Assembly (NCBI GenBank): GCA_027449025.1
Contig: DAIDMK010000029.1
Location: 1-34,765 of the forward strand
From: Lutibacter sp.
GTDB lineage: Bacteria; Bacteroidota; Bacteroidia; Flavobacteriales; Flavobacteriaceae
Length of the DNA: 34,765 nucleotides
Direction of reading: 5' to 3'
Below, in pieces: positions 4,082-28,970 of the stretch (positions within the stretch are counted from its first letter, which is position 1; each line of letters starts with the position of its first letter). A program made the position numbers and the translations under genes. The notes beneath the pieces were generated by a model, which was not told where the DNA came from, did not search any database, and worked only from the letters and a program-made list of their open reading frames with translations.

Positions 4082-4840
4082 TTATCTCGTAAAAACCAAC
4101 TCATCTGTTGAGGATAAGTTTGCGTCAAATGCATAGCCTTCATAATTAAAATTTTTCAACTCATCTATTGTTTCAACCTGTTGATCTATGATGAAACGAA
4201 CCATTAACCCCCTTGCTTTTTTCGCAAAAAACGCAATTACTTTTAATTTCCCGTCTTTTAAATCCTTAAAAACTGGCGTGATTATAGGAACTTTTAACAA
4301 TGCTGGTTTTACCGCTTTAAAATACTCAGCGCTCGCTAAATTAATAAACAATTCATTATCAGCAAGTTCATTATTTAATTTTTCGGTAATTTTTTTTCCC
4401 CAAAACTGATATAAATTCTCCTTTTTCGCCACTTTTAACTTGGTTCCCATTTCTAAACGATAAGGCTGAATCAAATCTAAAGGCTTCAATAAACCATATT
4501 GCCCTGATAGGATTCTTAATTTATTTTGAAGCTGATTCAATTTATCATTTGATAAGGAATATGCATCGAGCCCTATATAAACTTCCCCATTAAAAGCAAA
4601 AATAGCCTGACGTGCATTACTTAACGAAAAAGGCAATGTCCATTCCTGGTTACGTTGCCAATTTAATTCGCCCAAGTTTGGGGAAACATTCATTATTGCT
4701 GAAAGTTGTTTAGGAGATTTCTTCTTTAAAATGACATTCAATTTTGCGGCTTCATCTAAAAAAATTCCTTGTGTAAACTGCTTTGAGGGAATGGACGTTT
4801 TATAATCCAGTGATTTAGCCGGTGATATAATAATTTTCAA
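4082..4840 (-). CDS. yaaA: YaaA / UPF0246 family peroxide-stress protein
   Basis: The 252-residue protein opens with the family hallmark KIIISPAKSLDY and continues with conserved blocks such as AIFAFNGEVYIGLDAYSL and ILSGQYGLLKPLDLIQPYRLE. In E. coli YaaA limits iron-driven oxidative damage during peroxide stress and has a DNA-binding fold; there is no signal peptide, so it is cytosolic. The start codon is TTG (4838-4840): the family N-terminus begins exactly there and no in-frame ATG precedes it. Upstream lies a leader ORF (4859-4927) in a repeat shared with coaD and topB, suggesting coupled translation. Confidence 0.93.
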   Translation of the reverse strand: MKIIISPAKSLDYKTSIPSKQFTQGIFLDEAAKLNVILKKKSPKQLSAIMNVSPNLGELNWQRNQEWTLPFSLSNARQAIFAFNGEVYIGLDAYSLSNDKLNQLQNKLRILSGQYGLLKPLDLIQPYRLEMGTKLKVAKKENLYQFWGKKITEKLNNELADNELFINLASAEYFKAVKPALLKVPIITPVFKDLKDGKLKVIAFFAKKARGLMVRFIIDQQVETIDELKNFNYEGYAFDANLSSTDELVFTR

Positions 4841-4927
4841 CTGTTTAAACTTTATTTTTTATTGGTACATATGCAGTTCGCCATTAATCATTCTGCTGTG
4901 TATCAAAATTTGTAATGCTCGTTTCAT
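4841..4927 (-). repeat. Leader element, yaaA copy
   Basis: This 87-bp unit ends directly against the yaaA TTG start. By hand alignment it is identical at 80 of 87 positions to the topB copy (13073-13159), which is on the other strand. It contains a 22-codon ORF, an A/T-rich spacer and the terminal AAACAG. AACTG (plus-strand 4874-4878) can pair with CAGTT, which covers the start codon (4839-4843). Confidence 0.85.
4859..4927 (-). CDS. Leader peptide ORF upstream of yaaA
   Basis: This 22-residue ORF begins MKRALQILIHSRMINGELH and ends in TAA 18 nt before the yaaA start. The topB leader ORF has the same length and differs at two residues (Leu5/Trp and Met20/Leu). Such length and frame conservation suggests translation, but because the DNA itself is repeated, coding is not proven. 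Confidence 0.5.
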   Translation of the reverse strand: MKRALQILIHSRMINGELHMYQ

Positions 4928-5067
4928 TTCTTATTTTTTCATTTTTAGTTGAAATTTTATCCAACTAGGCAATTTTATGATTAATTATTTTTAAATAATA
5001 TCTTAAAATTAAAAATTAATATACAAATAGTTGCGTTTTTATGAATTATTATTGAAATAATTCTCAT

Positions 5068-5697
5068 TTAAACAAGTTCATTTATAAATTTTTGCATTTT
5101 TTCATACAGCAATCCCACGTGGTACCCATCCATTAATGCATGATGAACTTCCACCGAAAATGGGATTTTTTGAATTTCGTTTTCCTTGAATATTTTTCCA
5201 AATACCACTTTTGGAATCCCCCTCAATCCTTCATTTCCATTTCTTGCATGTTTAAATCCGGTAAAAGAAACCCAAGGAATTGTGGAGCAATGGATGATTC
5301 CCAATTGATCCTCCTGGGTATTGAACCCAATGCCTTTTTTATGATTTTCAAGCACTAATTTACCATTTGCATTAAATGCTGAAAGGGTTGTGCAATATTT
5401 AAAATCGCAAAATGAAAAAGTTTTGTCATCATTTAAAACTGTGGAGCCAATATTTACTTGATCAAATAAGTAAACTTTGTCGTTTTTAAAACGCAATTTA
5501 AATTCGGTAATTTCATTGGCACATTTTAAGGCAACATACATACAGGCTAAAGAAAACGACAAATGATGTTGCTTACAGTACTTGTAAAGATTGGTGACTT
5601 CTAAATTGGCTGTAATATTAAAAAAAGGATCTTCATACGTTTTAAAAAATTGGTATTGTGCATTTCTGTTCCAATTTTCAATATCAAATTCTTTCAT
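5068..5697 (-). CDS. Chloramphenicol acetyltransferase-fold protein
   Basis: This 209-residue protein has the CAT-family active site HHALMDGYH (residues 185-193, consensus HHxxxDG) and the conserved PWVSFTGF segment (141-148), which in CAT enzymes lines the active site. The length matches the family (about 210-220). Such proteins form trimers and acetylate hydroxyl groups with acetyl-CoA. Chromosomal flavobacterial copies are common, and drug resistance cannot be inferred from sequence alone. It lies 10 nt after the rluD stop, so it is probably the last gene of the PASTA-rluD operon. There is no signal peptide. Confidence 0.85.
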   Translation of the reverse strand: MKEFDIENWNRNAQYQFFKTYEDPFFNITANLEVTNLYKYCKQHHLSFSLACMYVALKCANEITEFKLRFKNDKVYLFDQVNIGSTVLNDDKTFSFCDFKYCTTLSAFNANGKLVLENHKKGIGFNTQEDQLGIIHCSTIPWVSFTGFKHARNGNEGLRGIPKVVFGKIFKENEIQKIPFSVEVHHALMDGYHVGLLYEKMQKFINELV

Positions 5698-5707
5698 TAT
5701 ATTCTTT

Positions 5708-6736
5708 TTATTCTTTTTGATTGATGGTATAGCTTCGCCATTTCTCTAAACACAACTGCATGTCTTGAGGCATTTCCGAATTAAATTGTAAGAATTCTTT
5801 GGTAATAGGATGCTGAAAACCCAATGTTTTTGCGTGTAGTGCTTGCCTTGGCAATACTTTAAAACAATTTTCAACAAATTGTTTGTATTTGGTAAATGTT
5901 GTACCTTTTAAGATGGTATCTCCACCGTAACGTTCATCATTAAAAAGCGTATGGCCGATGTGTTTCATATGCGCCCTAATTTGATGCGTTCTTCCGGTTT
6001 CCAGTTTGCATTGAATTAAGGTTACATAACTAAAGCGCTCCAGCACTTTATAATGGGTAATTGCAGGTTTGCCAAATTCGCCGGTTGGAAAAACATCCAT
6101 TTGCAATCTATTTTTTAAACTTCTACCAATATTTCCTTCAATAATCCCTTCTTCTTCATCAATATTTCCCCAAACCAAGGCATAATATAAACGTTCGGTG
6201 GTTCTGTCAAAAAATTGTTTGGACAAATGTGCCATCGCATATTCGGTTTTTGCCACCACCAGCAACCCACTGGTATCTTTATCTATTCTGTGTACCAAAC
6301 CAGGACGTTCATTGGAGTTTGTCGGCAAATTTTCAATATGAAAAATCAATCCGTTTACCAAAGTGCCGCTATAATTTCCGTGACCAGGATGCACTACCAT
6401 ACCGGCAGGTTTATTTACAACAATTACCTCATCATCTTCAAACAAAATATCCAAAGGAATGTCCTCCGCAACCAATAAATTCTCGTGTGGAGGATGTGCC
6501 AAAACAACACGAACAACATCTTTTGCCTTAACCTTATAGTTAGATTTTACTGCAATGTCATTCACCAATATATTTCCTGCTTTTGCAGCCTGTTGAATTT
6601 TATTTCGGGTAGAATATTCTATAAAATTCATCAGATATTTATCAACGCGCAAAGGCTCCTGACCTTCACTGGCAAGAAACCTATAATGTTCGTAAAATTC
6701 CTCTTTATCTAAATCTTCTATATTGTCTATTTTCAT
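5708..6736 (-). CDS. rluD: RluD-family 23S rRNA pseudouridine synthase
   Basis: This 342-residue RluA/RluD-family enzyme has an N-terminal S4 RNA-binding domain (about 29-76, LRVDKYL...) and a catalytic domain with VHRIDKDTSGLL; Asp152 is the catalytic aspartate. RluD isomerises uridines in helix 69 of 23S rRNA in E. coli; the exact target here is inferred from the family. Its start overlaps the PASTA gene stop by 4 nt (ATGA), indicating coupled translation, and the CAT-like gene follows after 10 nt. The PASTA-rluD pair facing ddl is a common flavobacterial arrangement. Confidence 0.92.
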   Translation of the reverse strand: MKIDNIEDLDKEEFYEHYRFLASEGQEPLRVDKYLMNFIEYSTRNKIQQAAKAGNILVNDIAVKSNYKVKAKDVVRVVLAHPPHENLLVAEDIPLDILFEDDEVIVVNKPAGMVVHPGHGNYSGTLVNGLIFHIENLPTNSNERPGLVHRIDKDTSGLLVVAKTEYAMAHLSKQFFDRTTERLYYALVWGNIDEEEGIIEGNIGRSLKNRLQMDVFPTGEFGKPAITHYKVLERFSYVTLIQCKLETGRTHQIRAHMKHIGHTLFNDERYGGDTILKGTTFTKYKQFVENCFKVLPRQALHAKTLGFQHPITKEFLQFNSEMPQDMQLCLEKWRSYTINQKE

Positions 6737-7338
6737 TCTATAATCAGTTCTTCGGTGGTTCCTAAACTATCTATTTGCATACCTCCTTCATTTCCATCGC
6801 CTAACTTTAAGATGATTTCAGAATTTTGTGGAATTTTATCTCCGTTTTTTAAATCTTTTCCTTTGTAAATTAAACCTCTCACCACATCTTTCGCAATATC
6901 ATTCACATAAATTTCCTGTGCACTTATTCTAAATCCAATGGCTGTTAATTGTGCAACTGCTTGTCTTTTTGTTTTGCCATAAAAATCGGGTATTTCAATA
7001 TCCGAATATCCTGATGGATTCAATGTCAAATATATTTTTCTGTTTTCTTTCACAAAATCCCCAGCTTCCGGACTTTGTTCAATGACAGATTTGCTTGGAT
7101 ACTCTGCAATAAAACTTGCAGAATCTATCACCTCCCAGCTTAAATCCAAATCGCTCAACGTTTCCTCAACCTCCTCCAAACTCAATTTAGACAAATTTGG
7201 AACTTCAATTTTCTGATTGTGATTGGTCGAAAAATTTAACCAAAACACACTAAAAACAATCAATACCACTAAAACAACAAATGCCATCAGCAACTGTTTT
7301 ACAAATACTTTAGATTTAATAAATTTAAAAAAACTCAT
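6733..7338 (-). CDS. PASTA domain membrane-anchored protein
   Basis: This 201-residue protein has a short cytosolic N-terminus, one membrane helix (about 12-35) and two PASTA domains (about 43-108 and 113-181) that would lie in the periplasm. PASTA domains bind muropeptides or cell-wall precursors in other bacteria. There is no kinase or transpeptidase domain, so this is a stand-alone PASTA protein. It is divergent from ddl, which makes the D-Ala-D-Ala of peptidoglycan, so a cell-wall link is plausible. It overlaps rluD by 4 nt. A -7 box lies 22 nt upstream of the start. Confidence 0.9.
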   Translation of the reverse strand: MSFFKFIKSKVFVKQLLMAFVVLVVLIVFSVFWLNFSTNHNQKIEVPNLSKLSLEEVEETLSDLDLSWEVIDSASFIAEYPSKSVIEQSPEAGDFVKENRKIYLTLNPSGYSDIEIPDFYGKTKRQAVAQLTAIGFRISAQEIYVNDIAKDVVRGLIYKGKDLKNGDKIPQNSEIILKLGDGNEGGMQIDSLGTTEELIIE

Positions 7339-7360
7339 ATTCCCGTTTTTAGATTTTATG

Positions 7361-7368
7361 CAAAGATA
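7361..7368 (-). promoter_or_regulatory. -7 promoter box for PASTA-rluD operon
   Basis: TATCTTTG on the minus strand matches TAnnTTTG perfectly, 22 nt before the PASTA start. No clear TTG was found at -33. Confidence 0.5.
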
Positions 7369-7450
7369 CTTTTTTATTGTTTATTTTTTTTCTGTTTAAT
7401 TTTTAGTTGTTGCCTTAGTTGGCTTAAACTTTCGACATTTAACTTTTAAT

Positions 7451-7501
7451 CCTATCCCCAACCCCTACCTAGGCAGGCAGGCTTTTCCGAAGGAAAGGGC
7501 G
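7451..7501. repeat. GC-rich hairpin with an inserted AGGCAGGC tract
   Basis: In an AT-rich spacer, this GC-rich patch holds CCCCAACCCCT and, further on, TTTCC-GAA-GGAAA followed by GGG, so it folds into an interrupted hairpin. Between the arms is a stretch of about 17 nt (about 7466-7482, ACCTAGGCAGGCAGGC). Similar short GC-rich sequence occurs inside the decayed leader copy at about 8642-8660. It looks like a small interspersed repeat or repeat debris. Confidence 0.45.
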
Positions 7502-7576
7502 TTTGATTTGAGATAAATAGTTATTTACAACAAAAATCTTCTAATATTTACCTTTTAATATTTAACTTTTAAACTG

Positions 7577-7584
7577 TAAGTTTG
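7577..7584 (+). promoter_or_regulatory. -7 promoter box for ddl
   Basis: TAAGTTTG matches TAnnTTTG perfectly, 23 nt before the ddl ATG. The -33 region has no clear TTG. Confidence 0.5.
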
Positions 7585-7607
7585 TATTTCAACTTATTAA
7601 ACTTATA

Positions 7608-8591
7608 ATGAAAAAAAATATTGCCATAATTATGGGCGGACACTCTTCGGAAGTTGAAATCTCTCTACAAAGTGGTCAGGTTGTCTATCAAAATATTTCA
7701 AAAGAGAAATACAATACCTATAAAGTTCATGTTCTTAAAGAAAAATGGGTGCTTGTTGATGATTCTGGAAATGAATTCCCCATAAACAAACACGATTTTT
7801 CAGCAGAAATTAAGGGTAAAAAAATTAATTTTGATTGCGTTTTTAATGCCATACATGGCCATCCGGGCGAAGACGGAACCATTTTAGCCTACTTTGAATT
7901 GATTGGGTTGAAACACACCTCAGCACCTTTTTATCAAATGGCATTAACATTTAATAAGCGTGATTGTTTAAGTGTTCTGAAACAATATGGCATAAAAACT
8001 GCAAAATCTTACTTTTTAAATAAGGGTGATAAAATTAATGTGGAAGAAATAATTGCGAGAGTAGGTTTGCCTTGTTTTGTAAAACCCAACAATGCCGGTT
8101 CAAGTTTTGGGATTTCTAAAGCAAAAACCGCTTCAGAAATAATTCCATCCATAGAAAAAGCTTTTAAAGAAGATTCACAAATTTTAATAGAAGAATTTTT
8201 AGACGGTACGGAAATTACCATTGGCGTTTTTAACTACAAAGGAAAAATTAAAGTGTTACCAATGACAGAAATTGTAAGTGGTAATGAGTTTTTTGATTAT
8301 GAAGCGAAGTATTTAGGGAAATCTCAGGAAATTACGCCTGCCAGAGTTTCATTGGAAGTTCATGAAAGATTAGAAAAAATAGCTTCTCAAGTATATCAAA
8401 TTTTAGACATGAGCGGATTTTCACGCTCTGAGTATATTTTAGTAAATAATGAGCCGCATTTTCTCGAAATGAATACTGTGCCTGGCTTGACAACGGCAAG
8501 TATAATTCCGCAACAAGCCAAAGTTGCAGGCATTAGTTTAGAAGCACTTTTTCATAATGCTATTGATATGGCTTTAAGCAAAAACTCATGA
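7608..8591 (+). CDS. ddl: D-alanine--D-alanine ligase
   Basis: This 327-residue ATP-grasp ligase has the N-terminal GGHSSEVEIS signature, the ATP-binding KPNNAGSSFGISKA loop, EEFLDGTEITIGVF, and the C-terminal FLEMNTVPGLTTASIIPQQ with the metal-binding Glu/Asn pair. It joins two D-alanines for peptidoglycan precursors in the cytosol. Length is typical for Ddl. It is transcribed toward coaD and divergently from the PASTA protein. Its stop codon overlaps the ATG-like first bases of the decayed leader element. Confidence 0.95.
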   Translation: MKKNIAIIMGGHSSEVEISLQSGQVVYQNISKEKYNTYKVHVLKEKWVLVDDSGNEFPINKHDFSAEIKGKKINFDCVFNAIHGHPGEDGTILAYFELIGLKHTSAPFYQMALTFNKRDCLSVLKQYGIKTAKSYFLNKGDKINVEEIIARVGLPCFVKPNNAGSSFGISKAKTASEIIPSIEKAFKEDSQILIEEFLDGTEITIGVFNYKGKIKVLPMTEIVSGNEFFDYEAKYLGKSQEITPARVSLEVHERLEKIASQVYQILDMSGFSRSEYILVNNEPHFLEMNTVPGLTTASIIPQQAKVAGISLEALFHNAIDMALSKNS

Positions 8592-8694
8592 ACAAATATT
8601 CTAAATTTTAACATTTATAAAGAATGATTAATGGCAAATTTACCTGCCGATAAGCAGACAGCTTTGTTACCGCTAAAAATTAAAATTTAAACAG
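8588..8694 (+). repeat. Decayed leader element, copy 0 upstream of coaD
   Basis: From the ATG overlapping the ddl stop, 48 nt align without gaps to the intact coaD units (shared AAATTTT, ACAT, AGAATGATTAAT). The last 30 or so nt (from TGTTACCGCTAAAAATTAAA) are also shared. Between them is an extra stretch of about 19 nt including ACCTGCCGATAAGCAGAC. The leader ORF is broken: it stops after seven codons. Confidence 0.7.
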
Positions 8695-8778
8695 ATGAAA
8701 CGAGCATTACAAATTTTGACATGCAAGAGAATGATTAATAGCGAACAGCATCTGTTACCGCTAAAAATTAAAATTTAA
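8695..8778 (+). CDS. Leader peptide ORF 1 upstream of coaD
   Basis: A 27-residue ORF beginning MKRALQILTCKRMINSEQH and ending in TAA, four nt (ACAG) before the next leader ATG. It resembles the yaaA and topB leader ORFs through MKRA-QIL and RMIN, but runs five residues longer. Confidence 0.4.
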   Translation: MKRALQILTCKRMINSEQHLLPLKIKI

Positions 8779-8782
8779 ACAG
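8695..8782 (+). repeat. Leader element, coaD tandem unit 1 (88 bp)
   Basis: This unit is identical at every base to the next one (8783-8870). The first 12 nt of each unit, ATGAAACGAGCA, are also the first 12 nt of coaD. The end of the unit can pair with its own CATCTGTT (8749-8756 with 8778-8785), covering the start of the next leader ORF. Confidence 0.9.
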
Positions 8783-8866
8783 ATGAAACGAGCATTACAA
8801 ATTTTGACATGCAAGAGAATGATTAATAGCGAACAGCATCTGTTACCGCTAAAAATTAAAATTTAA
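8783..8866 (+). CDS. Leader peptide ORF 2 upstream of coaD
   Basis: Identical 27-residue ORF to leader ORF 1. Its TAA lies four nt before the coaD ATG, a spacing that suits termination and re-initiation on coaD. Confidence 0.45.
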   Translation: MKRALQILTCKRMINSEQHLLPLKIKI

Positions 8867-8870
8867 ACAG
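8783..8870 (+). repeat. Leader element, coaD tandem unit 2 (88 bp)
   Basis: Exact duplicate of 8695-8782, ending directly against the coaD ATG. CATCTGTT (8837-8844) and AACAGATG (8866-8873) form an 8-bp inverted repeat that includes the coaD start codon. Confidence 0.9.
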
Positions 8871-9329
8871 ATGAAACGAGCAATTTTCCCAGGATCATTT
8901 GATCCAATTACTTTAGGCCACGTTGATGTAATTAACAGAGCATTGCCTTTATTTGCTGAAATTATTGTTGCTGTTGGCATAAATACCGACAAAACTTACC
9001 TCTTTTCACTTGAGGAACGAGTCAATTTTATCAAAAAGCATTATGCAAATGAACCTAAGGTAAAAGTGGAAACCTATGCCGGTTTGACCATTGATTTTTG
9101 TCAGAAATTGGATATAGATTTTATTTTGAGAGGTTTAAGAAATCCTGCAGATTTTGAATTTGAAAAAGCCATTGCCCAAACAAACAGAAAATTATCAACC
9201 GTTGAAACAGTGTTTTTATTAACCTCGGCCGACACATCATTTATTAGCTCTAGCATTGTGCGCGATGTTTTGCGTAACGGTGGAGATATTTCTGGTTTTG
9301 TACCGGAAAGTGTCCCGAAAAAATTATAA
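8871..9329 (+). CDS. coaD: Phosphopantetheine adenylyltransferase
   Basis: This 152-residue nucleotidyltransferase opens MKRAIFPGSFDPITLGH, where TLGH (14-17) is the family's (H/T)xGH nucleotide-binding motif. The C-terminal ISSSIVRDVLRNGGDISGFVP block is also typical. It transfers AMP from ATP to 4'-phosphopantetheine, the penultimate step of coenzyme A synthesis. The start is fixed by the family N-terminus. It is preceded without a gap by two tandem leader elements, so its translation may depend on leader reading. The next gene starts on the last base of its stop codon. Confidence 0.96.
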   Translation: MKRAIFPGSFDPITLGHVDVINRALPLFAEIIVAVGINTDKTYLFSLEERVNFIKKHYANEPKVKVETYAGLTIDFCQKLDIDFILRGLRNPADFEFEKAIAQTNRKLSTVETVFLLTSADTSFISSSIVRDVLRNGGDISGFVPESVPKKL

Positions 9330-11083
9330 TGATGCACTTAAAAAGAATTCTGTTTTCAGTAATAATCATCTTATTTTCGGGTATAACTTCAGCCCAAAAA
9401 AAACTCAATGATTTCACAACCGTTTTCGAAAAATCAAAAGGTCTAGAAACTTCAACATATCAAGAAACCATTGCATTTTACAAAGATTTGGCCGCCGTTT
9501 ATCCTGAAATTTCTTTAATGGAAATGGGAGAAACTGACAGTGGTTTTCCTTTGCACCTGGTGGTTTTTAATACTTCAAAAGAGTTTGATTTTAGTAAAAT
9601 TCACCTAGACCAAAAGAATATTATTTTAATCAACAATGCCATTCATCCAGGTGAACCTGATGGTGTGGATGCAAGTATGATGTTGTTAAGAGATTTTGTT
9701 CAGGATAAAAACAAGATTAAAAAATTAGAAAATATCGTATTGGCCGTAATTCCGATGTATAATGTTGGTGGCGCTTTAAACAGAAACAGCCATTCCCGTG
9801 CAAACCAAAAAGGTCCGATAGAATACGGCTTTAGAGGAAATGCCCAAAATTATGATCTAAACAGAGATTTTATAAAAACCGATTCAAAAAATGCCAAATC
9901 ATTTGCTGAAATTTTTCATTTGGTGCAACCCGATGTTTTTATAGACAATCACGTGAGCAATGGCGCTGATTATCAATACGGTATTACCCATTTATTTACA
10001 CAACACAATAACTTGGGAAATGATCTTGGTGATTTTATTGAAAATGAAATGAGACCCAACATCGAAGCATCATTGTTGAAAAAAGACATTATCATTACGC
10101 CCTATGTGAATGTTTGGGGAACTACACCAGAAGCCGGTTTTAGTCAGTTTTTCGACAGTCCGAGATATTCAACTGGTTACACAACTTTGTTCAACACTTT
10201 GGGGATGATGGTAGAAACACATATGCTGAAACCCTACAAACAACGTGTTTCAGAAACCTACAGTTTACTGGTATCGGTAATCGATTTCACGATAAAAAAT
10301 GGTGCTAAAATTAAAGAACTTCGCAGCAATGCCGTTTCAAAAATTTTGGCAAAAGAAACCTACCCTCTTTTGTTTGAACTTGATAAAAACACCTATTCAA
10401 CCTTACAGTTTAAAGGCTACGAAGGAAGTTATATCGACAGTAAAGTCACCAATGGTAAGCGTTTGTATTACGACCGGACAAAACCCTATACAAAACCTGT
10501 AAAATATTTCAACAATTATATTCCTTCAAAAGAAATCCAACTTCCTAAAGCCTATATTTTAAAACAAGGCTGGTGGAAAGTTTTGGAACGATTGAAAGAT
10601 AACAATATTGAATACCTTGTTTTCAAAAACGACACTACCATAATTGCTGAAGAACAACATATTAAAGATTATAAAACAAGCCCTAGACCTTTTGAAGGGC
10701 ATTATATGCATTCAAAAACCGAAGTTTCTTCAACAACAAAAAAAGTGTTATTCAGTAAAGGAGCCGTTTATATTCCAACCCAGCAAAATGGTGTGCGCTA
10801 TATTGTGGAAACTTTAGAAGCCGAAGCAACCGATTCCTTCTTTAACTGGAATTTTTTTGATACCATTTTGGAGCAAAAAGAACACTTTTCATCCTATGTT
10901 TTTGAAGATATTGCAGAAAAATTATTACTAGAGAATCCGACCTTGAGAGATTTGCTGCGTCAGAAAATGACAACAGACCAAGATTTTGCTGAAAGTCCAG
11001 AAGCACAATTGGATTTTGTGTACAAAAATTCTCCTTACTATGAAACTGCACACTTAAAATTGCCTGTTTATAAAGTGTTTTAA
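9329..11083 (+). CDS. Secreted M14 family zinc carboxypeptidase
   Basis: This 584-residue protein has an N-terminal signal peptide (hydrophobic to about residue 22, ending ITSAQ). The catalytic domain has the HxxE zinc motif in IHPGEPDG (His106, Glu109), the third ligand in DNHVSNGAD (His208), and a likely catalytic glutamate in MMVETHM (Glu296). The remaining 280 residues have no motif I can name. It should cleave C-terminal residues from peptides outside the cytoplasm. The start overlaps the coaD stop (TAATG); a second ATG follows immediately at 9332. Its end overlaps the convergent GNAT gene by 4 nt. Confidence 0.88.
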   Translation: MMHLKRILFSVIIILFSGITSAQKKLNDFTTVFEKSKGLETSTYQETIAFYKDLAAVYPEISLMEMGETDSGFPLHLVVFNTSKEFDFSKIHLDQKNIILINNAIHPGEPDGVDASMMLLRDFVQDKNKIKKLENIVLAVIPMYNVGGALNRNSHSRANQKGPIEYGFRGNAQNYDLNRDFIKTDSKNAKSFAEIFHLVQPDVFIDNHVSNGADYQYGITHLFTQHNNLGNDLGDFIENEMRPNIEASLLKKDIIITPYVNVWGTTPEAGFSQFFDSPRYSTGYTTLFNTLGMMVETHMLKPYKQRVSETYSLLVSVIDFTIKNGAKIKELRSNAVSKILAKETYPLLFELDKNTYSTLQFKGYEGSYIDSKVTNGKRLYYDRTKPYTKPVKYFNNYIPSKEIQLPKAYILKQGWWKVLERLKDNNIEYLVFKNDTTIIAEEQHIKDYKTSPRPFEGHYMHSKTEVSSTTKKVLFSKGAVYIPTQQNGVRYIVETLEAEATDSFFNWNFFDTILEQKEHFSSYVFEDIAEKLLLENPTLRDLLRQKMTTDQDFAESPEAQLDFVYKNSPYYETAHLKLPVYKVF

Positions 11084-11577
11084 ATACTATTCTTGTGAAT
11101 TAACAATTCCCAATAGCCAACATCAATCCATTTTTTAAACTTATAGCCCACTTCTTTAAATTGGGCTATTTTTTCAAAACCAAATTTTTCATGCAAAGCA
11201 ACACTTGCTTCATTAGGAAGGGAAATGCCGCCAATTATGGCGTGAAAACCCAATTCTGTTAGTTGTATAAGCAATTCTTTGTAAAGCAGAGAACCAATGC
11301 CACTTTTTATTGCCTCATTTTTAAGATAAACAGTGCTTTCAGCCGTATATTTATAAGCCGATCTTGGTTTCCAAACACTCGCATAAGCGTAGCCTAAAAT
11401 CTCATTGTTTTTTTCAAAAACAAGCCAAGGAAATTTTAAATAGACAGCTTCAATTCTTCCACACATTTCTTCGGCGCTTACAGGATATTCCTCAAAAGTG
11501 ACGCAAGAATTAAGAATATAATAATTGTATATCTCAGCTATTTTCTGGGCATCTTCTAATTTAACTTTTCTAATCAT
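11080..11577 (-). CDS. GNAT N-acetyltransferase, phosphinothricin/methionine-sulfone type
   Basis: This 165-residue GNAT protein resembles the Pat/MnaT (YncA) group: IYNYYILNSCVTFEE near the N-terminus, GYAYASVWKPRSAYKYTAESTVY in the middle, and the acetyl-CoA pyrophosphate loop KSGIGSLLYKEL. These enzymes acetylate methionine sulfone, sulfoximine and phosphinothricin-like amino acids; the natural substrate here is unknown. It is cytosolic. Its 3' end overlaps the convergent M14 gene by 4 nt. Confidence 0.85.
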   Translation of the reverse strand: MIRKVKLEDAQKIAEIYNYYILNSCVTFEEYPVSAEEMCGRIEAVYLKFPWLVFEKNNEILGYAYASVWKPRSAYKYTAESTVYLKNEAIKSGIGSLLYKELLIQLTELGFHAIIGGISLPNEASVALHEKFGFEKIAQFKEVGYKFKKWIDVGYWELLIHKNSI

Positions 11578-11611
11578 CTACGGCAAATGGTTCGTGTTCA
11601 TCTTCTTCAGA

Positions 11612-12091
11612 TTACTCAGGCCAATCAATGGTGTCATCATCAATAAAAAAAGGTGTCCATTGAATTTCATCTAAAACCCCATCATTAATCCAAAAATTAA
11701 TTGATTTTTCTTCAATTTCAATCACTTTTTGGTCTTCAATATCGTCCTCAGAACAAACTTCCAGGCTCCATTCTCCCAGATCCATTTCGTCCAACTCTGT
11801 CATCAAGCCTTCTTGAAACAAACCAATCAAACTTTTTCCTTCCAATTCATAAAAATCATCATTTACAGAAATCATTATCAATCTCCAGTCTTCTTCTTCA
11901 TCAAAACTTAGCGATAACAATAAGTCGTCATATTGCCAAGATTCCGTCAAATCCTTTTTAGAATCCGAATGCGAATATTTATCGATAAATGAAGGCTTTC
12001 CAAGCATTAATTCCACTTCTTTTCTGGTCATTCCAAATTTTAGGTTGCCCAATCCGTAACCAAGTTTTATTTCTTTGAGTGCTTTTTTCAT
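11612..12091 (-). CDS. Hypothetical acidic protein with BamE/SmpA-like N-terminal motif
   Basis: I do not recognise this 159-residue protein as a named family. Its N-terminus, LGNLKFGMTRKEVELMLGKP (about 15-34), resembles the SmpA/BamE-type motif in which a short loop precedes a helix and LGxP, but there is no lipobox. The rest is rich in Asp, Glu and Trp and is predicted to be soluble. A -7 box lies 26 nt upstream. The gene ends 34 nt before the GNAT start and may be co-transcribed with it. Confidence 0.7.
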   Translation of the reverse strand: MKKALKEIKLGYGLGNLKFGMTRKEVELMLGKPSFIDKYSHSDSKKDLTESWQYDDLLLSLSFDEEEDWRLIMISVNDDFYELEGKSLIGLFQEGLMTELDEMDLGEWSLEVCSEDDIEDQKVIEIEEKSINFWINDGVLDEIQWTPFFIDDDTIDWPE

Positions 12092-12117
12092 AATTTTATA
12101 CGATTTAAAAATACTAA

Positions 12118-12125
12118 CAAATCTA
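12118..12125 (-). promoter_or_regulatory. -7 promoter box for the 12.1 kb gene
   Basis: TAGATTTG on the minus strand matches TAnnTTTG, 26 nt before the start codon. Confidence 0.45.
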
Positions 12126-12210
12126 ATGGATTATTTTTTTATTTACTGGTAAAATTTGACTTCTATACCATTAAATAATTTATATATCAAATTTCGAAAA
12201 AAATATGCGA

Positions 12211-12840
12211 TTAATTTATTTTTTTGCATATCATTAGAAACAAGGGATATTTTCTAACTTTTCCATCAAACTCTTTTTCAATATCAAAAGGCGTTTCATT
12301 GTACACAACTTTAAATCCATGATTGGATAAAACAGCACTTAGTTTTTCCCTGTCAAATCCATTATGACCATCAAAACCAGGTACATTGGTATGAAAAGAA
12401 CCGTCTTCCTTCACCAAATCAGCAACACACAAATAACCACCAGTTTTCAGCATCGTATGGAATATTGGTAAAATCTTATCAATTTCAAGTATGTGATGAA
12501 GTGTCATCAAGGTATAAATCACATCAAATTCATTGCTATTAATAACAGCATTCTCCTCTAATAAATCTATAAGAACCGGTTTAAAATTGTTGATATTTTC
12601 ATTGGCTATTTTTTCCTGCAAAACTTTTATCATCCCGTCTGAAGTATCGGCGAGTGTTATTGTTTTGAAAAAATCCTTTAGCTGATAGCTCAATAGTCCT
12701 GTTCCACAGCCAAACTCAAAAGCATTCATCGTTTTATCCGGCTGAATAAAACCCGTAATTTCTTTTGCAATGGTAATGGCTCTTTCTCTCTTTTTTGGGT
12801 CATTGTCCCATTCTTTGGCTTGTATGTTGAAATGCGTCAT
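12211..12840 (-). CDS. Class I SAM-dependent methyltransferase
   Basis: This 209-residue Rossmann-fold methyltransferase has motif I FEFGCGTGLL (41-50), an acidic residue after strand 2 (TLADTS) and FDVIYTLMTLHHI as the motif IV/post region. This is the general UbiE/type-11 pattern. The substrate cannot be read from the sequence. It stands alone, with a 119-nt gap to the next gene and a -7 box 39 nt upstream of its start. Confidence 0.85.
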   Translation of the reverse strand: MTHFNIQAKEWDNDPKKRERAITIAKEITGFIQPDKTMNAFEFGCGTGLLSYQLKDFFKTITLADTSDGMIKVLQEKIANENINNFKPVLIDLLEENAVINSNEFDVIYTLMTLHHILEIDKILPIFHTMLKTGGYLCVADLVKEDGSFHTNVPGFDGHNGFDREKLSAVLSNHGFKVVYNETPFDIEKEFDGKVRKYPLFLMICKKIN

Positions 12841-12879
12841 TGTTTATTTAATTTTCTTAAATGCTTCTAAATATCTCAA

Positions 12880-12887
12880 CAAATATA
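12880..12887 (-). promoter_or_regulatory. -7 promoter box for methyltransferase
   Basis: TATATTTG on the minus strand matches TAnnTTTG, 39 nt before the start. A TTG on the minus strand (12912-12914) lies 24 nt upstream of it, slightly long for a -33 element. Confidence 0.4.
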
Positions 12888-13072
12888 ACAGTTAATCATT
12901 GGTGTTTTAGCCAAAATGATGATAAATGATTGGTAACATAAATTACATTTTATCATTTAAGAAGTTAATCTCCAATCAAACCTAACCTTGAAAAAGTTTC
13001 AAAATCAATCTACTTATTAAGGCCACAATTACGATGAAAATTAGTATTTTGCGGCTTTAAAAAAATTCAAAA

Positions 13073-13141
13073 ATGAAACGAGCTTGGCAAATTTTGATAC
13101 ACAGCAGAATGATTAATGGCGAACTGCATCTGTACCAATAA
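13073..13141 (+). CDS. Leader peptide ORF upstream of topB
   Basis: A 22-residue ORF beginning MKRAWQILIHSRMINGELH. It keeps the frame, length and stop position of the yaaA leader ORF. Its last codons lie on the CATCTGT arm, so a ribosome reading it would open the hairpin over the topB start. Confidence 0.5.
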   Translation: MKRAWQILIHSRMINGELHLYQ

Positions 13142-13159
13142 AATATAAAATATAAACAG
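13073..13159 (+). repeat. Leader element, topB copy (87 bp)
   Basis: This unit ends directly against the topB ATG and matches the yaaA copy at 80 of 87 positions. CATCTGT (13127-13133) and ACAGATG (13156-13162) form a 7-bp inverted repeat that includes the topB start codon. A leader ORF ends 18 nt before topB, exactly as in the yaaA copy. Confidence 0.88.
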
Positions 13160-15475
13160 ATGAAAGTATGTATTGCCGAAAAACCAAGTGTTGCGCGTGA
13201 AATTGCTGCTGTTTTAGGTGCAAACACCAAACACGACGGTTATTTTGAAGGGAATGGATACGCAGTTACTTTCACTTTCGGACATTTATGTACCTTATTT
13301 GAACCCAATGATTACAAATCGCATTGGAAAAGCTGGGATTTAAACAATTTACCCATGCTTCCGGAAAAGTTTGAAACCAAAGTGGTGGACAATATTGGCA
13401 TCAAAAAACAATTCAACATTGTAAAAGGTCTGTTCGACAAAGCAACTTTAATTATCAATTGCGGGGATGCCGGACAAGAAGGAGAGTTGATTCAGCGCTG
13501 GGTAATTCAACAGGCAAACTACAAAGGAGAAGTAAAACGCTTGTGGATTTCCTCATTAACTACGGAAGCCATCAAAGAAGGTTTTGAAAATTTAAAACCT
13601 TCAGAAAACTACGACAATTTATATTATGCAGGCTATTCAAGAGCTATTGGCGATTGGCTATTGGGAATGAATGCCACAAGATTATACACCTTAAAACACG
13701 GCGGAAATAAACAGGTTTTATCCGTTGGCAGAGTACAAACACCCACTTTGGCGATGGTGGTCAATCGATTTAAGGAAATAGAAAATTTTGTACCACAGCC
13801 TTATTGGGAATTGCAAACACTTTATCGTGAAACGCTTTTTAATTGTGAAGAAGGGCGCTTTCAAAAAAAGGAAGATGGCGAATTGCTCGCCAATAAAGTA
13901 AAAGAAAGCGATTTTGAAATTGTTTCCGTCACCAAGAAAAAAGGGAAAGAAAATGCGCCAAAATTATTTGATTTAACCGGATTGCAGGTTTATTGCAACA
14001 ATAAATTTGATTTTTCTGCTGATGAAACCCTTAAAATTGTTCAAAAATTATACGAACAAAAAGTGGTTACTTATCCAAGAGTCGATACCACATTTTTGCC
14101 TGATGATGTGTATCCGAAAGTGCCGGAAATTTTAAAAAACCTGACCGCTTACCAAACATTGACTTCGCCTTTATTAGGAAAAAAAATAAAAAAATCATCG
14201 TTGGTTTTTAACAGCAAAAAGGTTACTGATCATCACGCCATCATTCCAACCGGCGTTCAAATTAATTTGCCTTATAATCAACAACAGGTTTACGATATTA
14301 TAACCAAACGATTTATAGCTGTTTTTTATGATGATTGTACCGTTTCTAACACGGCAATTATTGGCGTAGCGGCTGATGTTACTTTTAAAACAACCGGAAA
14401 AGAAATTCTTGAAAAAGGATGGCGGGTTGTATTCGCCACTTCGGCTCCGCTTAGTGCAAGTGCAGAAAAACTGGAAACTGGAATCCTGCCAAATTTCATA
14501 AAAGGAGAAAAAGGGCCACATGAACCTTCCTTTTTGGAGAAAGCCACAAAACCGCCCAACTTATTTTCTGAAGCCACTTTGCTTCGGGCAATGGAAACTG
14601 CAGGGAAACAAATTGATGACGATGAATTGCGAGAATTGATGAAAGAAAACGGGATTGGCCGACCATCAACCCGCGCAAATATTATTGAAACACTTTTTAG
14701 AAGAAAATATATTATCCGAAATAAGAAGCAAATTTTACCCACGCAAACTGGCATTCAATTAATCGATATTATCCAAAGTGAACTGTTAAAATCGGCAGAA
14801 TTGACCGGACAATGGGAAAAACAGCTTAAAGAAATTGAAAAAGGAACTTACAATGCCGGGACTTTCATAAAAAATATGAAAAAGATGGTTGACCATTTGG
14901 TTTATGAGGTTCGTTCCGAAAAAATAACGGCAAATATTTACCATCATGAAGTTGCCAAACAGGTTCCTAAAAAAAGTACAGCAATTTCCACTGGAATTTC
15001 ATCAGAGAAATGTCCGAAATGTAAAAAAGGAACTATTCTCAAAGGAAAAACTGCTTATGGCTGCAGTGAATATACGAACGGCTGTGATTTCAGATTGCCT
15101 TTTAGTTTTCTCGATAAAAAAATATCGGAAAATCAATATATCCGCTTGCTACAAAAAAAATGCACCGTCAATTTAAAAGGTTTTAAAACAGAAGTTGGAG
15201 AAACGGAAGGTTTAATCCGTTTTAACGAACAATTTAATTTGGTGCTGGAAGAAAAGAAAACTTCAAAAAAAACTACTTTAAGCGAAGTTCCTGATAAAAT
15301 TGTTTGTCCGAAATGCCATAAAGGAACTGTGCTGAAAGGAAAAACAGCTTACGGGTGTAGTAATTATAAAAATGGCTGCGATTTTCTATTCAGTTTTGAT
15401 GACATCAGAAAAAAAGCAGCGGGGCAACCACTTTCCGCAACATTGGTTTACGCTATTTTAAATGGAAAATCCTAA
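13160..15475 (+). CDS. topB: DNA topoisomerase III (type IA)
   Basis: This 771-residue type IA topoisomerase begins with the Toprim motif CIAEKPSVAREIA (Glu7). The second Toprim motif is CGDAGQEGELI (Asp103, Glu107), with Gly105 where E. coli enzymes have a second Asp. The active-site tyrosine is in VVTYPRVDT (Tyr305), followed by IGRPSTRANII. Two C-terminal four-cysteine zinc-finger-like modules start at Cys618 and Cys716, 98 residues apart. It passes single DNA strands to decatenate recombination and replication intermediates. Translation is probably coupled to the leader ORF upstream. The next gene overlaps its end by 14 nt. Confidence 0.95.
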   Translation: MKVCIAEKPSVAREIAAVLGANTKHDGYFEGNGYAVTFTFGHLCTLFEPNDYKSHWKSWDLNNLPMLPEKFETKVVDNIGIKKQFNIVKGLFDKATLIINCGDAGQEGELIQRWVIQQANYKGEVKRLWISSLTTEAIKEGFENLKPSENYDNLYYAGYSRAIGDWLLGMNATRLYTLKHGGNKQVLSVGRVQTPTLAMVVNRFKEIENFVPQPYWELQTLYRETLFNCEEGRFQKKEDGELLANKVKESDFEIVSVTKKKGKENAPKLFDLTGLQVYCNNKFDFSADETLKIVQKLYEQKVVTYPRVDTTFLPDDVYPKVPEILKNLTAYQTLTSPLLGKKIKKSSLVFNSKKVTDHHAIIPTGVQINLPYNQQQVYDIITKRFIAVFYDDCTVSNTAIIGVAADVTFKTTGKEILEKGWRVVFATSAPLSASAEKLETGILPNFIKGEKGPHEPSFLEKATKPPNLFSEATLLRAMETAGKQIDDDELRELMKENGIGRPSTRANIIETLFRRKYIIRNKKQILPTQTGIQLIDIIQSELLKSAELTGQWEKQLKEIEKGTYNAGTFIKNMKKMVDHLVYEVRSEKITANIYHHEVAKQVPKKSTAISTGISSEKCPKCKKGTILKGKTAYGCSEYTNGCDFRLPFSFLDKKISENQYIRLLQKKCTVNLKGFKTEVGETEGLIRFNEQFNLVLEEKKTSKKTTLSEVPDKIVCPKCHKGTVLKGKTAYGCSNYKNGCDFLFSFDDIRKKAAGQPLSATLVYAILNGKS

Positions 15476-21934: not shown

Positions 21935-22092
21935 CTAATCAGTTTATCCTTCATACTCAAATTTAGCAAGTACCAGGTTTTAAAAAGTTTTGGTTCTTAC
22001 AAAATATCACAGCAATAAAATATCCTGTTTGCTGCAGTGATTGATAGCACCATTGTTTTTGATTGTGCAAAAAAAAAAAAATTTATTGATAC

Positions 22093-22206
22093 AGAAATAA
22101 AAAAGCGACTAAGTTAAAGTAACCTTTTAACTTAATCGCTATAATATACCCTGCTTAATTTTGTTAAGCTTTTTCAGTAGTCTCTTTAAATTGACTGCGT
22201 TTTTTG
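22093..22206 (-). repeat. 3'-end repeat with terminator, copy A (after the E2 gene)
   Basis: This 114-bp segment is about three-quarters identical to 28858-28970, which follows clpS. On the minus strand it starts with a short frame reading RSQFKETTEKA and ends in the terminator hairpin. Both copies have the same orientation relative to the gene they follow. Confidence 0.7.
22099..22139 (-). terminator. Terminator downstream of the E2 gene
   Basis: On the minus strand, 14 bp (22126-22139 with 22105-22118, core GATTAAGTTAAA) with one G-U pair and a 7-nt loop are followed by six T. Confidence 0.85.
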
Positions 22207-23759: not shown

Positions 23760-23797
23760 TTACATTAATATGTAATAACAGTTACATTAATATGTAA
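23760..23797 (+). promoter_or_regulatory. Two tandem TTACAT-TAAT-ATGTAA inverted repeats
   Basis: The same 16-nt inverted repeat occurs at 23760-23775 and 23782-23797, 22 bp apart, i.e. about two helical turns. A related site, TTACACTTGCATGTAA, lies in copy 2 (25603-25618). The form fits a dimeric transcription factor; I cannot name it. Confidence 0.5.
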
Positions 23798-23891
23798 CAT
23801 AAATAGCCTTCAAACTGGACTATACAATATATAAACAATCTAAATAAGCGACAACTACTTGATTTTTAGTATGTTACATTTCTACAGAAGA

Positions 23892-23903
23892 TGACTTAAA
23901 TCA
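23892..23903 (+). promoter_or_regulatory. CRP/FNR-like site, copy 1
   Basis: TGACTTAAATCA has the TGA(T/C)-N4-ATCA form of FNR/DNR-type operators. It lies 28 nt before a TTG (23920-23922) that may be the -33 element, the same spacing as in copy 2. Confidence 0.6.
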
Positions 23904-24042
23904 TAGATAAAAATTAAAGTTGGTCATAATTTTACAACTGCTCATTGCACATTATAAGTAATAGCGAATTCTAAAAAATCTAAAATCAATGAATTTATCT
24001 TTGATTTTAACAACAAGTTTAACAAAAATAATAACAAATTTT

Positions 24043-25457: not shown

Positions 25458-25751
25458 ATTGCCATTTTCACAATTAACGCTATAAAAACGCTCATAAATT
25501 GTGTAGAAATATAATTTTTACTTTCCTATAAAACAATCATCTTAAAAAAACAAAAATATTTACCCTCCAAAAAACTAATTTTTAATATCGATAAAACAAT
25601 AATTACACTTGCATGTAACAAAAGTAGCGTTAAAATTGCATCAAATAATTAATAAACAGTCTAAATAAGGTTTAACTATCTGATTATGAGTGTGTTTAAA
25701 TTTACAAAAAGATGATTTAAATCATAAAAAAAAGTTAAAGTTGGTGGTATT
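25458..25751 (+). promoter_or_regulatory. Cytochrome upstream module, copy 2
   Basis: Homologue of 23665-23930. It carries the TTACA/TGTAA inverted repeat (25603-25618), the CRP/FNR-like palindrome (25713-25724) and the TTG at 25741-25743. The distances between these (110 and 28 nt) equal those in copy 1. An indel of 28 nt lies in the left part. With the terminator before it, this fills the 511-nt gap. Confidence 0.75.
25712..25725 (+). promoter_or_regulatory. CRP/FNR-like palindrome, copy 2
   Basis: ATGATTTAAATCAT is a perfect 14-bp palindrome with the half-sites TGAT and ATCA spaced by four bases, as in FNR operators. Its centre lies 22.5 nt before the TTG at 25741. Confidence 0.65.
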
Positions 25752-25792
25752 TTTAACAAATATTTAAAACAAACAAACAAATATCTAATATT

Positions 25793-28764: not shown

Positions 28765-28857
28765 TTTATAAGACATTTTAGTTAAAAAAGGCTTTTTATG
28801 GCGCGACTCATTAGTTATGTCTTAGAAAAAAAATAGTACGGATTTTTGGAGAGATAA

Positions 28858-28970
28858 AGAAATAAAAAAGCGACTAAATTAAAGTTATCTTTTAACTTAA
28901 TCATTCTGATAGATCTTGCTTAATTTTGTTGAACCTTTTCAGTAACCTCTTTAAATTTGTAGCTTTTTTA
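28858..28970 (-). repeat. 3'-end repeat with terminator, copy B (after clpS)
   Basis: Homologue of 22093-22206. On the minus strand it starts on the clpS stop and reads SYKFKEVTEKVQQN before a TAA, close to the RSQFKETTEKA of copy A, and then enters a hairpin terminator. Confidence 0.7.
28864..28903 (-). terminator. Terminator of the tpiA-prmA-clpS operon
   Basis: On the minus strand a stem of about 13 bp with several G-U pairs (28891-28903 with 28871-28883) is followed by six T (28864-28869). It is weaker than its homologue after the E2 gene. Confidence 0.7.

Follow-up and report, generated by a model that had tools for sequence, protein, structure and literature searches.

The 34,765-nt stretch of a Lutibacter sp. 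genome analysed here (contig DAIDMK010000029.1 of assembly GCA_027449025.1; hereafter the window) carries repeat units of 87 or 88 bp directly upstream of three genes, yaaA, coaD and topB. We conclude with high confidence that these units are copies of a mobile element that targets the pentamer ATGAA, a judgement that concerns the element itself and leaves aside the nuclease proposed below to move it. Most likely the element is non-autonomous and akin to repetitive extragenic palindromic (REP) sequences or to miniature inverted-repeat transposable elements (MITEs), which are small non-autonomous mobile repeats. Our comparisons establish its mobility, its ends, its target, its single orientation, a preference for start codons and two covarying hairpins. 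An initial annotation of the window had described the units as finishing right at the start codon, in sense, in all three genes; at each site the last base indeed precedes the start codon. Its figure of 80 identical positions out of 87 between the yaaA and topB units was reproduced on recounting, and a repeat search of the window returned the two as arms of 105 nt with 90% identity. The yaaA unit, the topB unit and two intact coaD units open with ATGAAACGAGC and close with TAAACAG directly before ATGAAA, or before TTGAAA in the case of yaaA, whose ortholog at another locus (L151) starts with ATGAAA.

The source genome (3.34 Mb in 136 contigs) contains at least 66 matches to the unit, 61 of them long (two cut by contig ends) and five short; 40 of 111 candidate matches were scored, so that these counts are lower bounds. 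When 34 stretches around these matches were examined together with the window, nhmmer identified 64 units of this kind, which we call type A. Three further types, B, C and D, came to light by reading beyond arrays that seemingly lacked a gene. They are 86-89 bp long, are bounded by ATGAAA or close variants, and are represented in the source genome by 13 matches at E<1e-9 (type B) and by one each (types C and D). Altogether, these stretches hold 42 arrays made up of 74 units, which fall into four types; 22 arrays consist of a single A unit and the others of two to five units, for example AA, AAA, ABA or AAABA. An open reading frame (ORF) of at least 60 aa is abutted in sense by 37 of the 41 classifiable arrays, 36 through ATGAAA and one through TTGAAA. 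The remaining four end at ATGAAA without a long ORF (L041, L045, L057) or at AGGAAA with an ORF beginning 44 nt downstream (L058). Five extra B-containing sites lie outside the 42-array count: an A-like unit leads into an ORF at L213 and L214, L212 runs off its contig, and L216 and L217 were left unclassified. The short matches inspected in two stretches (L034, L035) are right ends that lack both a left end and a transposase-like gene. In L034 (G000:C27), a 47-codon ORF lies between two right-end-like pieces without a left end, immediately ahead of an AA array.

Evidence of mobility comes from orthologous sites that differ in occupancy between species. The L047 site holds two units in the source genome and is empty in two other loci (L098, L201), where the flank passes directly into ATGAAAACAACTACAGCA and ATGAAAACAACAACAGC; such empty orthologous sites show that insertion is clean. 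The NAD-kinase site carries two units in the source genome and four in L123, and the L049 site one unit compared with three in L156. For each of the three window genes, 30 orthologous loci were compared, drawn from 35-37 genomes with a match: the coaD site is filled in 8 of 29 (one of the 30 being too short upstream), the yaaA site in 2 of 30 and the topB site in 3 of 30. These three topB insertions represent three unit types in three species, namely an A-type unit (L295), a D-like array (L306) and a divergent unit (L322) that was found by a covariance model (E=7.5e-4) and by eye. All eight filled coaD genes start with ATGAAA, and none of the 12 with ATGAGA or ATGCG starts is filled (P=0.009, confounded with ancestry). 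Two unit-free topB upstream regions (L297 and L301, in G029 and G021) have only TTTAAACAG directly before ATGAAA and are perhaps remnants of deleted units.

A genome of another genus (G436) holds at least 27 copies, a lower bound given that at most 40 candidates were scored; 12 of these are 100% identical over the full 91 bp, and 23 are 96.7-100% identical. All but one of the 23 near-identical copies have common ends (L508 deviates), and their flanks are unrelated by eye. An ORF of at least 60 aa is abutted by 16 of them, five lie at other ATGAAA sites, one lies at ATAAAA (L491) and one, with a changed left end, at AAGAAA (L508). This pattern marks a recent burst. The initial annotation proposed a mobile or copied element whose placement follows orientation and start codon, and the empty sites, this burst and the copies in further genomes support it.

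Relatives of the unit are widespread in the family. Among 60 genomes, 32 match at E<=1e-5, comprising the source, 30 of 36 congeners and one genome of another genus; between 0 and 42 matches were listed per genome, lower bounds because at most 15 candidates were scored in each. A named collection yielded at least 110 stretches, for which the 80 titles listed are all metagenome assemblies, assigned to Lutibacter, to unnamed Flavobacteriia or Bacteroidetes and, in one case, to Gelidibacter. Its Lutibacter-type loci contain at least 138 arrays with at least 229 units, and arrays reach eight units. After 23 arrays too close to a stretch end are set aside, 86 of the remaining 115 adjoin an ORF of at least 60 aa by the rule of our script, and in the other 29 the terminal ATGAAA opens a short ORF or no ORF, or else further units or N (L147) come next. 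Loci L098, L101 and L116 are upstream array members whose last unit abuts an ATGAA ORF; L195 abuts one itself. Across the order, 16 of 395 genomes searched at the DNA level match at E<=1e-4, several through short pieces only. The covariance model (R1) detected units in 118 of 236 Flavobacteriaceae genera (138 of 299 genomes) and in 36 of 395 Bacteroidota genomes, including the source: 23 in the Flavobacteriaceae, five elsewhere in the order, six elsewhere in the class and two outside it (G820, G1032). At most 2, 14 and 10 candidates per genome were scored in the order, family and phylum searches, so these counts are lower bounds as well; the E-values of R1 are rough, and some of its matches are its own training sequences. 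The 27 best loci of the family search all fit the unit pattern (26 with ATGAAA and one with ATGAAT at the right end, where the pattern itself demands ATGAA), and in 23 of them an ORF of at least 60 aa follows directly. Of the rest, L382 precedes a 57-aa ORF that may leave the contig, L381 precedes none, and L397 and L398 are followed by an apparent further unit. Among 20 further loci from G820, G869, G861, G1032 and G117, 14 abut such an ORF; in four of the six exceptions (L539, L541, L542, L543) the next ORF begins at +88 to +96, as in arrays, and in two (L532, L544) it does not. Phage, plasmid and IMG/VR collections, each searched with one or two queries, gave no unit match. Rather than lying at random distance and orientation to genes, or being absent elsewhere, the copies in the relatives searched thus came out in favour of the initial annotation. 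In three genomes of another genus (g21), a unit lies in a like flank with ATAAAATGAAA or GTAAAATGAAA on its right side (L523, L524, L531), perhaps one ancient insertion kept across species.

The target can be delimited from the unit ends. Genes starting with ATGAAT, ATGAAG or ATGAAC are also hit, and the left end of the unit stays ATGAAAC (seven loci), which identifies ATGAA as the shared target; a duplication of the target gene's own hexamer is rejected on the same loci, since the left end is ATGAAAC regardless of the gene start. In alignments fitted to the covariance model, as A2 and A3 are, the right pentamer is ATGAA in 67/70 and 37/38 units and the left pentamer in 66/70 and 29/38, proportions to be read in the knowledge that the model was trained on such ends. 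Exceptions aside, insertion therefore takes place at a fixed target of 4-5 nt and in a single orientation. In these bacteria, which are low in GC and have no Shine-Dalgarno sites, genes commonly begin with ATGAA. Outside gene interiors, ATGAA coincides with a gene start in 42% of cases in the source DNA, 37% in the named loci and 38% in the G436 loci, according to gene calls from a simple and crude ORF rule. The units lie at gene starts in 37/41 (P~1e-10), 86/115 (P~1e-16) and 16/23 cases (P=0.002), respectively, and the first comparison, against a null of 42%, excludes chance. For ATGAAA alone, 46% of occurrences in the source DNA are gene starts, with P=2e-9 for the observed preference. The earlier claim that orientation and start codon are respected thus holds for sense placement and as a preference for start codons; the boundary itself is the pentamer, and some copies are found without a long ORF.

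Upstream of the first unit of 168 arrays, A is enriched at -12 to -10 (0.60, 0.61, 0.65), as it is upstream of unit-free ATGAA starts (0.67, 0.67, 0.57) in comparison with intergenic ATGAA (0.42, 0.36, 0.37). The peak persists (0.58, 0.61, 0.63) after 14 upstream regions that resemble unit ends are dropped, and the right end of the unit also carries such A residues. A start-like peak ahead of the first unit indicates that the units were inserted at the old start codon and that the gene now uses the right end of the unit. In Flavobacterium johnsoniae, an A-rich motif is reported at -14 to -11, A at -3 and -6 favours initiation and structure hinders it (PMC6847099). The peak at -12 to -10 agrees with this motif; at -3, however, the unit has C, which is part of a stem, and not the favourable A. 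A search for an extended target revealed a mild excess of G at -1 of target sites (0.29 vs 0.09 at unit-free starts). As far as can be read from sequence, the unit appears to behave as a passenger that resupplies what it displaces.

The unit types differ in sequence and share a common layout: ATG-A-(stem 1 ... stem 1')-one base-CAT-NTG-(A/T-rich loop)-CAN-ATG-AA. The units fold into two hairpins that compensatory changes support, the right one pairing CAT with the start ATG. In 23 diverse units, 78.6% of cells are paired compared with 69.1% in shuffled alignments, and covariation is 0.252 vs 0.092 (0/500); further pair types were not above shuffles (269/500), and slid controls drop to 18-37%. 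Similarly, 68 distinct model-aligned units have 79.8% vs 70.2% of cells paired and covariation of 0.219 vs 0.079 in shuffles (0/500). Pairing extends to 66% of cells in stem 1 and 98% in the right stem, and by reading many of the unpaired cells at positions 8 and 9 seem to be a tandem G-A/A-G mismatch. The free letter of CATNTG..CAN-ATG forms C-G in 37, G-C in 36 and no pair in three of 76 unique units (loci L356-L516, nearly all from other genera), the other stem letters being fixed by the pattern. The middle CAT is able to pair with the ATG of either end; this segment hardly varies. CAT is kept in 82/131 last and 47/89 inner scorable A units (P=0.16). Against Rfam 15, the window gave no match at gathering score, and eight loci gave three sub-threshold matches, none on a unit. 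The topB unit contains an open 22-codon ORF, and this mini-ORF is broken in many copies, either by a stop at codon 5 (ATGAAACGAGCATAA) or by length differences of 1-3 bases that shift the frame.

In our preferred reading, a non-autonomous element of about 85-97 bp enters at ATGAA in one orientation and leaves ATGAA at both ends. Most of the insertions observed are exactly at a start codon, where the initiation region of the gene is displaced upstream and replaced by the A-rich right end of the unit, with start codon and protein unchanged. Head-to-tail mixed arrays could form by further insertion at the left ATGAA of a unit or by recombination between units. The units might be transferred as single-stranded DNA by an HUH (Y1-like) nuclease acting in trans, the middle CAT serving as a guide able to pair with the left or the right ATG, a step to which we give somewhat less than even confidence. 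Insertion of single strands by an HUH enzyme is consistent with the precise ends, the single orientation, the fixed pentamer, the conserved hairpins and the head-to-tail arrangement of the units; in IS200/IS605 elements, such insertion involves the binding of hairpins and a guide that base-pairs with the target (PMC6006769). More tentatively, the units may exemplify a phylum-wide class of mobile elements that land on ATGAA in a translation-start context via a CAT guide and bring a portable initiation region. Such a context could be recognised, for example, through single-stranded start regions during transcription or replication.

Several observations weigh against this proposal. No mobiliser was found in a search that covered Y1 transposases (recombinase families and reverse transcriptase association were not searched). 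Across the family, a Y1_Tnp match is present in 13/22 unit-rich and 5/16 unit-free genomes (P=0.11), two of the unit-rich ones belonging to the source's own genus, which leaves nine unit-rich genomes without Y1. The units do not flank Y1 genes: a pattern scan of 68 Y1 loci detected one unit, at trpF, and a profile scan of 40 Y1 loci detected three A units in two loci (L250, L257), of which the L250 unit has a RAYT gene as its target and adjoins that gene's start codon. Two IS200 types in G436 have other ends, with left ATGAA in 0/9 copies. The guide CAT is CAG in 91/220 scorable Lutibacter A units, so that a perfectly paired guide cannot be essential. Folds computed from single sequences are weak for types A, C and D; among all types, z is -0.95 and -1.31 (A), -4.12 (B), -1.08 (C) and 0.31 (D) for DNA, and -2.49 and -0.42 (A), -3.59 (B) and -0.22 (D) for RNA. 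Some sites deviate from ATGAA, including L491 (ATAAAA), L508 (AAGAAA), L058 (AGGAAA), L181 (GTGAAA), yaaA (TTGAAA), L528 (ATGATA) and also L523/L524/L531. Finally, loss of harmful insertions may account for part of the start preference.

Given the ratio of 13/22 to 5/16, the other repeats beside RAYT genes and the differing IS200 ends, a Y1 (IS200/RAYT) transposase was rejected as the mobilising enzyme. In the genus, 14 genomes have at least 15 listed unit matches, and G017 alone among them lacks a Y1_Tnp match. In four unit-rich genomes lacking Y1 (G313, G492, G529, G030), the 12 copies compared have diverged to 66-91% identity; in G604, whose Y1 match is weak, some copies are 97-98% alike and others more distant, and G233, where Y1 is present, has three copies 89-91% alike. 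This matches enzyme loss only loosely, in a small sample. RAYT-like Y1 genes of about 184-204 aa have their own repeats beside them (cggattgcaaatccg; cgaagtcgggagacttcg) at L245, L246 and L251-L258 (G000 C34:5726, C79:7020 and congeners). The IS200-type elements of G436 are two, each about 590 bp long and in four near-identical copies (L452-L455, L458-L461), and no unit was seen within the 18 IS200 stretches examined. In G000 (C12:15880-16200), G013, G023, G026, G031 and G541, Y1_Tnp also matches open frames of about 1050-1290 aa, far longer than any Y1 transposase known to us.

Other explanations can be weighed against a mobile ATGAA-targeted element. Site-specific recombination, in which a tyrosine or serine recombinase would integrate double-stranded circles of one or more units at an ATGAA core much as an integron integrase treats cassettes, would account for the fixed core at both ends, the fixed orientation, the head-to-tail arrays and the multi-unit blocks with a shared B-A junction. 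We nevertheless regard it as unlikely, because no conserved arm lies upstream of the core, the mild G excess at -1 aside, an armless 5-bp core would be unusual, and the covarying hairpins point to single strands. Copying of the leader from mRNA by a reverse transcriptase, followed by insertion at start codons, would be in keeping with the preference for gene starts even among fresh copies in G436 (16/23 vs 38%, P=0.002); five of these 23 burst units, however, lie at ATGAAA without a long ORF, and we consider this route quite improbable.

The initial annotation had placed the three genes under common translational control. A portable cis-regulatory RNA leader of this kind, in which the right hairpin would hide the start codon and CAU would switch between AUGs in response to a common factor, finds some backing in the right stem, which is kept by compensatory changes with the start codon included, and in the switch-like competition of the AUGs of both ends for one CAU. 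We did not uphold common control, and we judge the leader improbable: the target genes, as read from N-termini, are functionally mixed (coaD, topB, yaaA, NAD kinase, rlmH, gcvT, ybbR, argG, serC, adk, cmk, lpxB, murI) with no common function visible, occupancy varies between species, the mini-ORF is broken in many copies, some units stand at ATGAAA without a long ORF, and arrays contain up to eight units. Moreover, the last unit of an array is the only one in contact with the start codon, and CAT rates are nonetheless similar in last and inner A units, so that no selection on start-codon pairing in place is visible. A conserved leader peptide (mini-ORF MKRA...), suggested by the open ORF of the topB unit, was rejected, as its reading frame is not conserved, with many stops at codon 5 and frame-shifting length differences. 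Recent local duplication in this contig would suit the identical tandem units 2 and 3 of coaD, and has to be set against copies on many contigs and in 118 genera; we treat both of these last explanations as practically negligible.

The initial annotation knew of no named family that matches, and none emerged from Rfam or from the literature searched, judged by title and abstract, with subscription papers and preprints mostly outside; nor was an ATGAA start-codon target found described there. REP sequences and their clusters (BIMEs), mobilised by RAYT (TnpA_REP), are likewise short, dispersed, non-coding hairpin elements, single or clustered, with a foot motif (PMC6006769), and the units share with them imperfect hairpins kept through compensatory change. 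The units differ in being about 90 bp long with two hairpins, in their exact start-codon placement and in having ATGAA, not GTAG: neither the consensus of 238 unique A units nor a set of 23 diverse units shows the foot tetranucleotide GTAG (or GT[AG]G) at either end. The RAYT genes inspected here have other repeats adjacent. The known systems of this kind include the Bacteroidetes subclass 2.6, described as having 'atypical secondary structures' (PMC6006769). The CGTC-tagged palindromes are also a REP-like family without an identified dedicated transposase, according to the main text of their description; the units lack a conserved CGTC tag, and 'start codon' is absent from that main text (PMC3733652). 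IS200/IS605 elements and their non-autonomous derivatives offer a short left-flank target, subterminal hairpins and pairing of a guide with the cleavage site (in part from PMC6006769); the units, in contrast, have ATGAA at both ends, CAT between the hairpins and no transposase gene found inside or adjacent. TAACTGA direct repeats, known from Beggiatoaceae, some Cyanobacteria and five Bacteroidetes, are multi-copy as well and lie just upstream of start codons of genes with mixed functions by an unexplained mechanism. They are, however, only 7 bp long and lie 'within several nucleotides' of the start codon instead of abutting it, and the abstract describes no insertion at ATGAA (PMC4679880). Like MITEs, the units are small, non-autonomous and mobile; unlike MITEs derived from DDE transposons, they show neither terminal inverted repeats nor a target duplication that varies with the site, since ATGAA is fixed on nearly all ends and the left end stays ATGAAAC at the seven ATGAAT/G/C loci.

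Positions of the units and their target genes are collected below.

Units, hairpin and target genes in the window
Feature	Position	Strand	Remarks
Target gene yaaA	4082..4840	-	
A-type unit before yaaA	4841..4927	-	single; adjoins TTGAAA start at 4840
Degenerate first unit of coaD array	8588..8694	+	older by reading; left ATGA overlaps ddl stop
A-type unit 2 of coaD array	8695..8782	+	88 bp; identical to unit 3
A-type unit 3 of coaD array	8783..8870	+	88 bp; ends at coaD ATGAAA (8871)
Target gene coaD	8871..9329	+	
A-type unit before topB	13073..13159	+	single; topB ATGAAA at 13160
Right-end hairpin of topB unit	13127..13162	+	folds of like units, family-wide compensatory changes
Target gene topB	13160..15475	+	

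The topB start codon forms part of ACAGATG (13156-13162), the partner of CATCTGT (13127-13133) in the topB hairpin. The degenerate coaD unit (8588-8694) carries a nested CCTGCC-type palindrome. This second palindromic repeat, CCTGCCTGC..GCAGGCAGG, is also nested in units of L098, L100, L101, L116, L195, L266 and L277, at much the same position, with GGCGAAC on one side and GCA.CTG on the other, so that the unit hairpin looks like a site selected by another repeat. Two other repeat pairs occur in the window: one of 117 bp, 82% identical, at 22088-22204 and 28853-28969, and one of 161 bp, 73% identical, at 23774-23934 and 25595-25755, ahead of two genes whose products look secreted or cytochrome-like.

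An essential gene hit by a mobile element is normally damaged or silenced; here the initiation region is replaced and the protein is untouched. In different genera, the start codons of adk, cmk, NAD kinase, coaD and murI (names from N-termini) are occupied. Our results pose the questions of which enzyme acts, and of whether the start codon is recognised or ATGAA alone. The insertions amount to a set of natural experiments in which initiation regions have been exchanged in bacteria that work without Shine-Dalgarno sites. If the units do form the phylum-wide class tentatively suggested above, essential genes would be invaded unbroken and translation would be rewired genome-wide as the element spreads.

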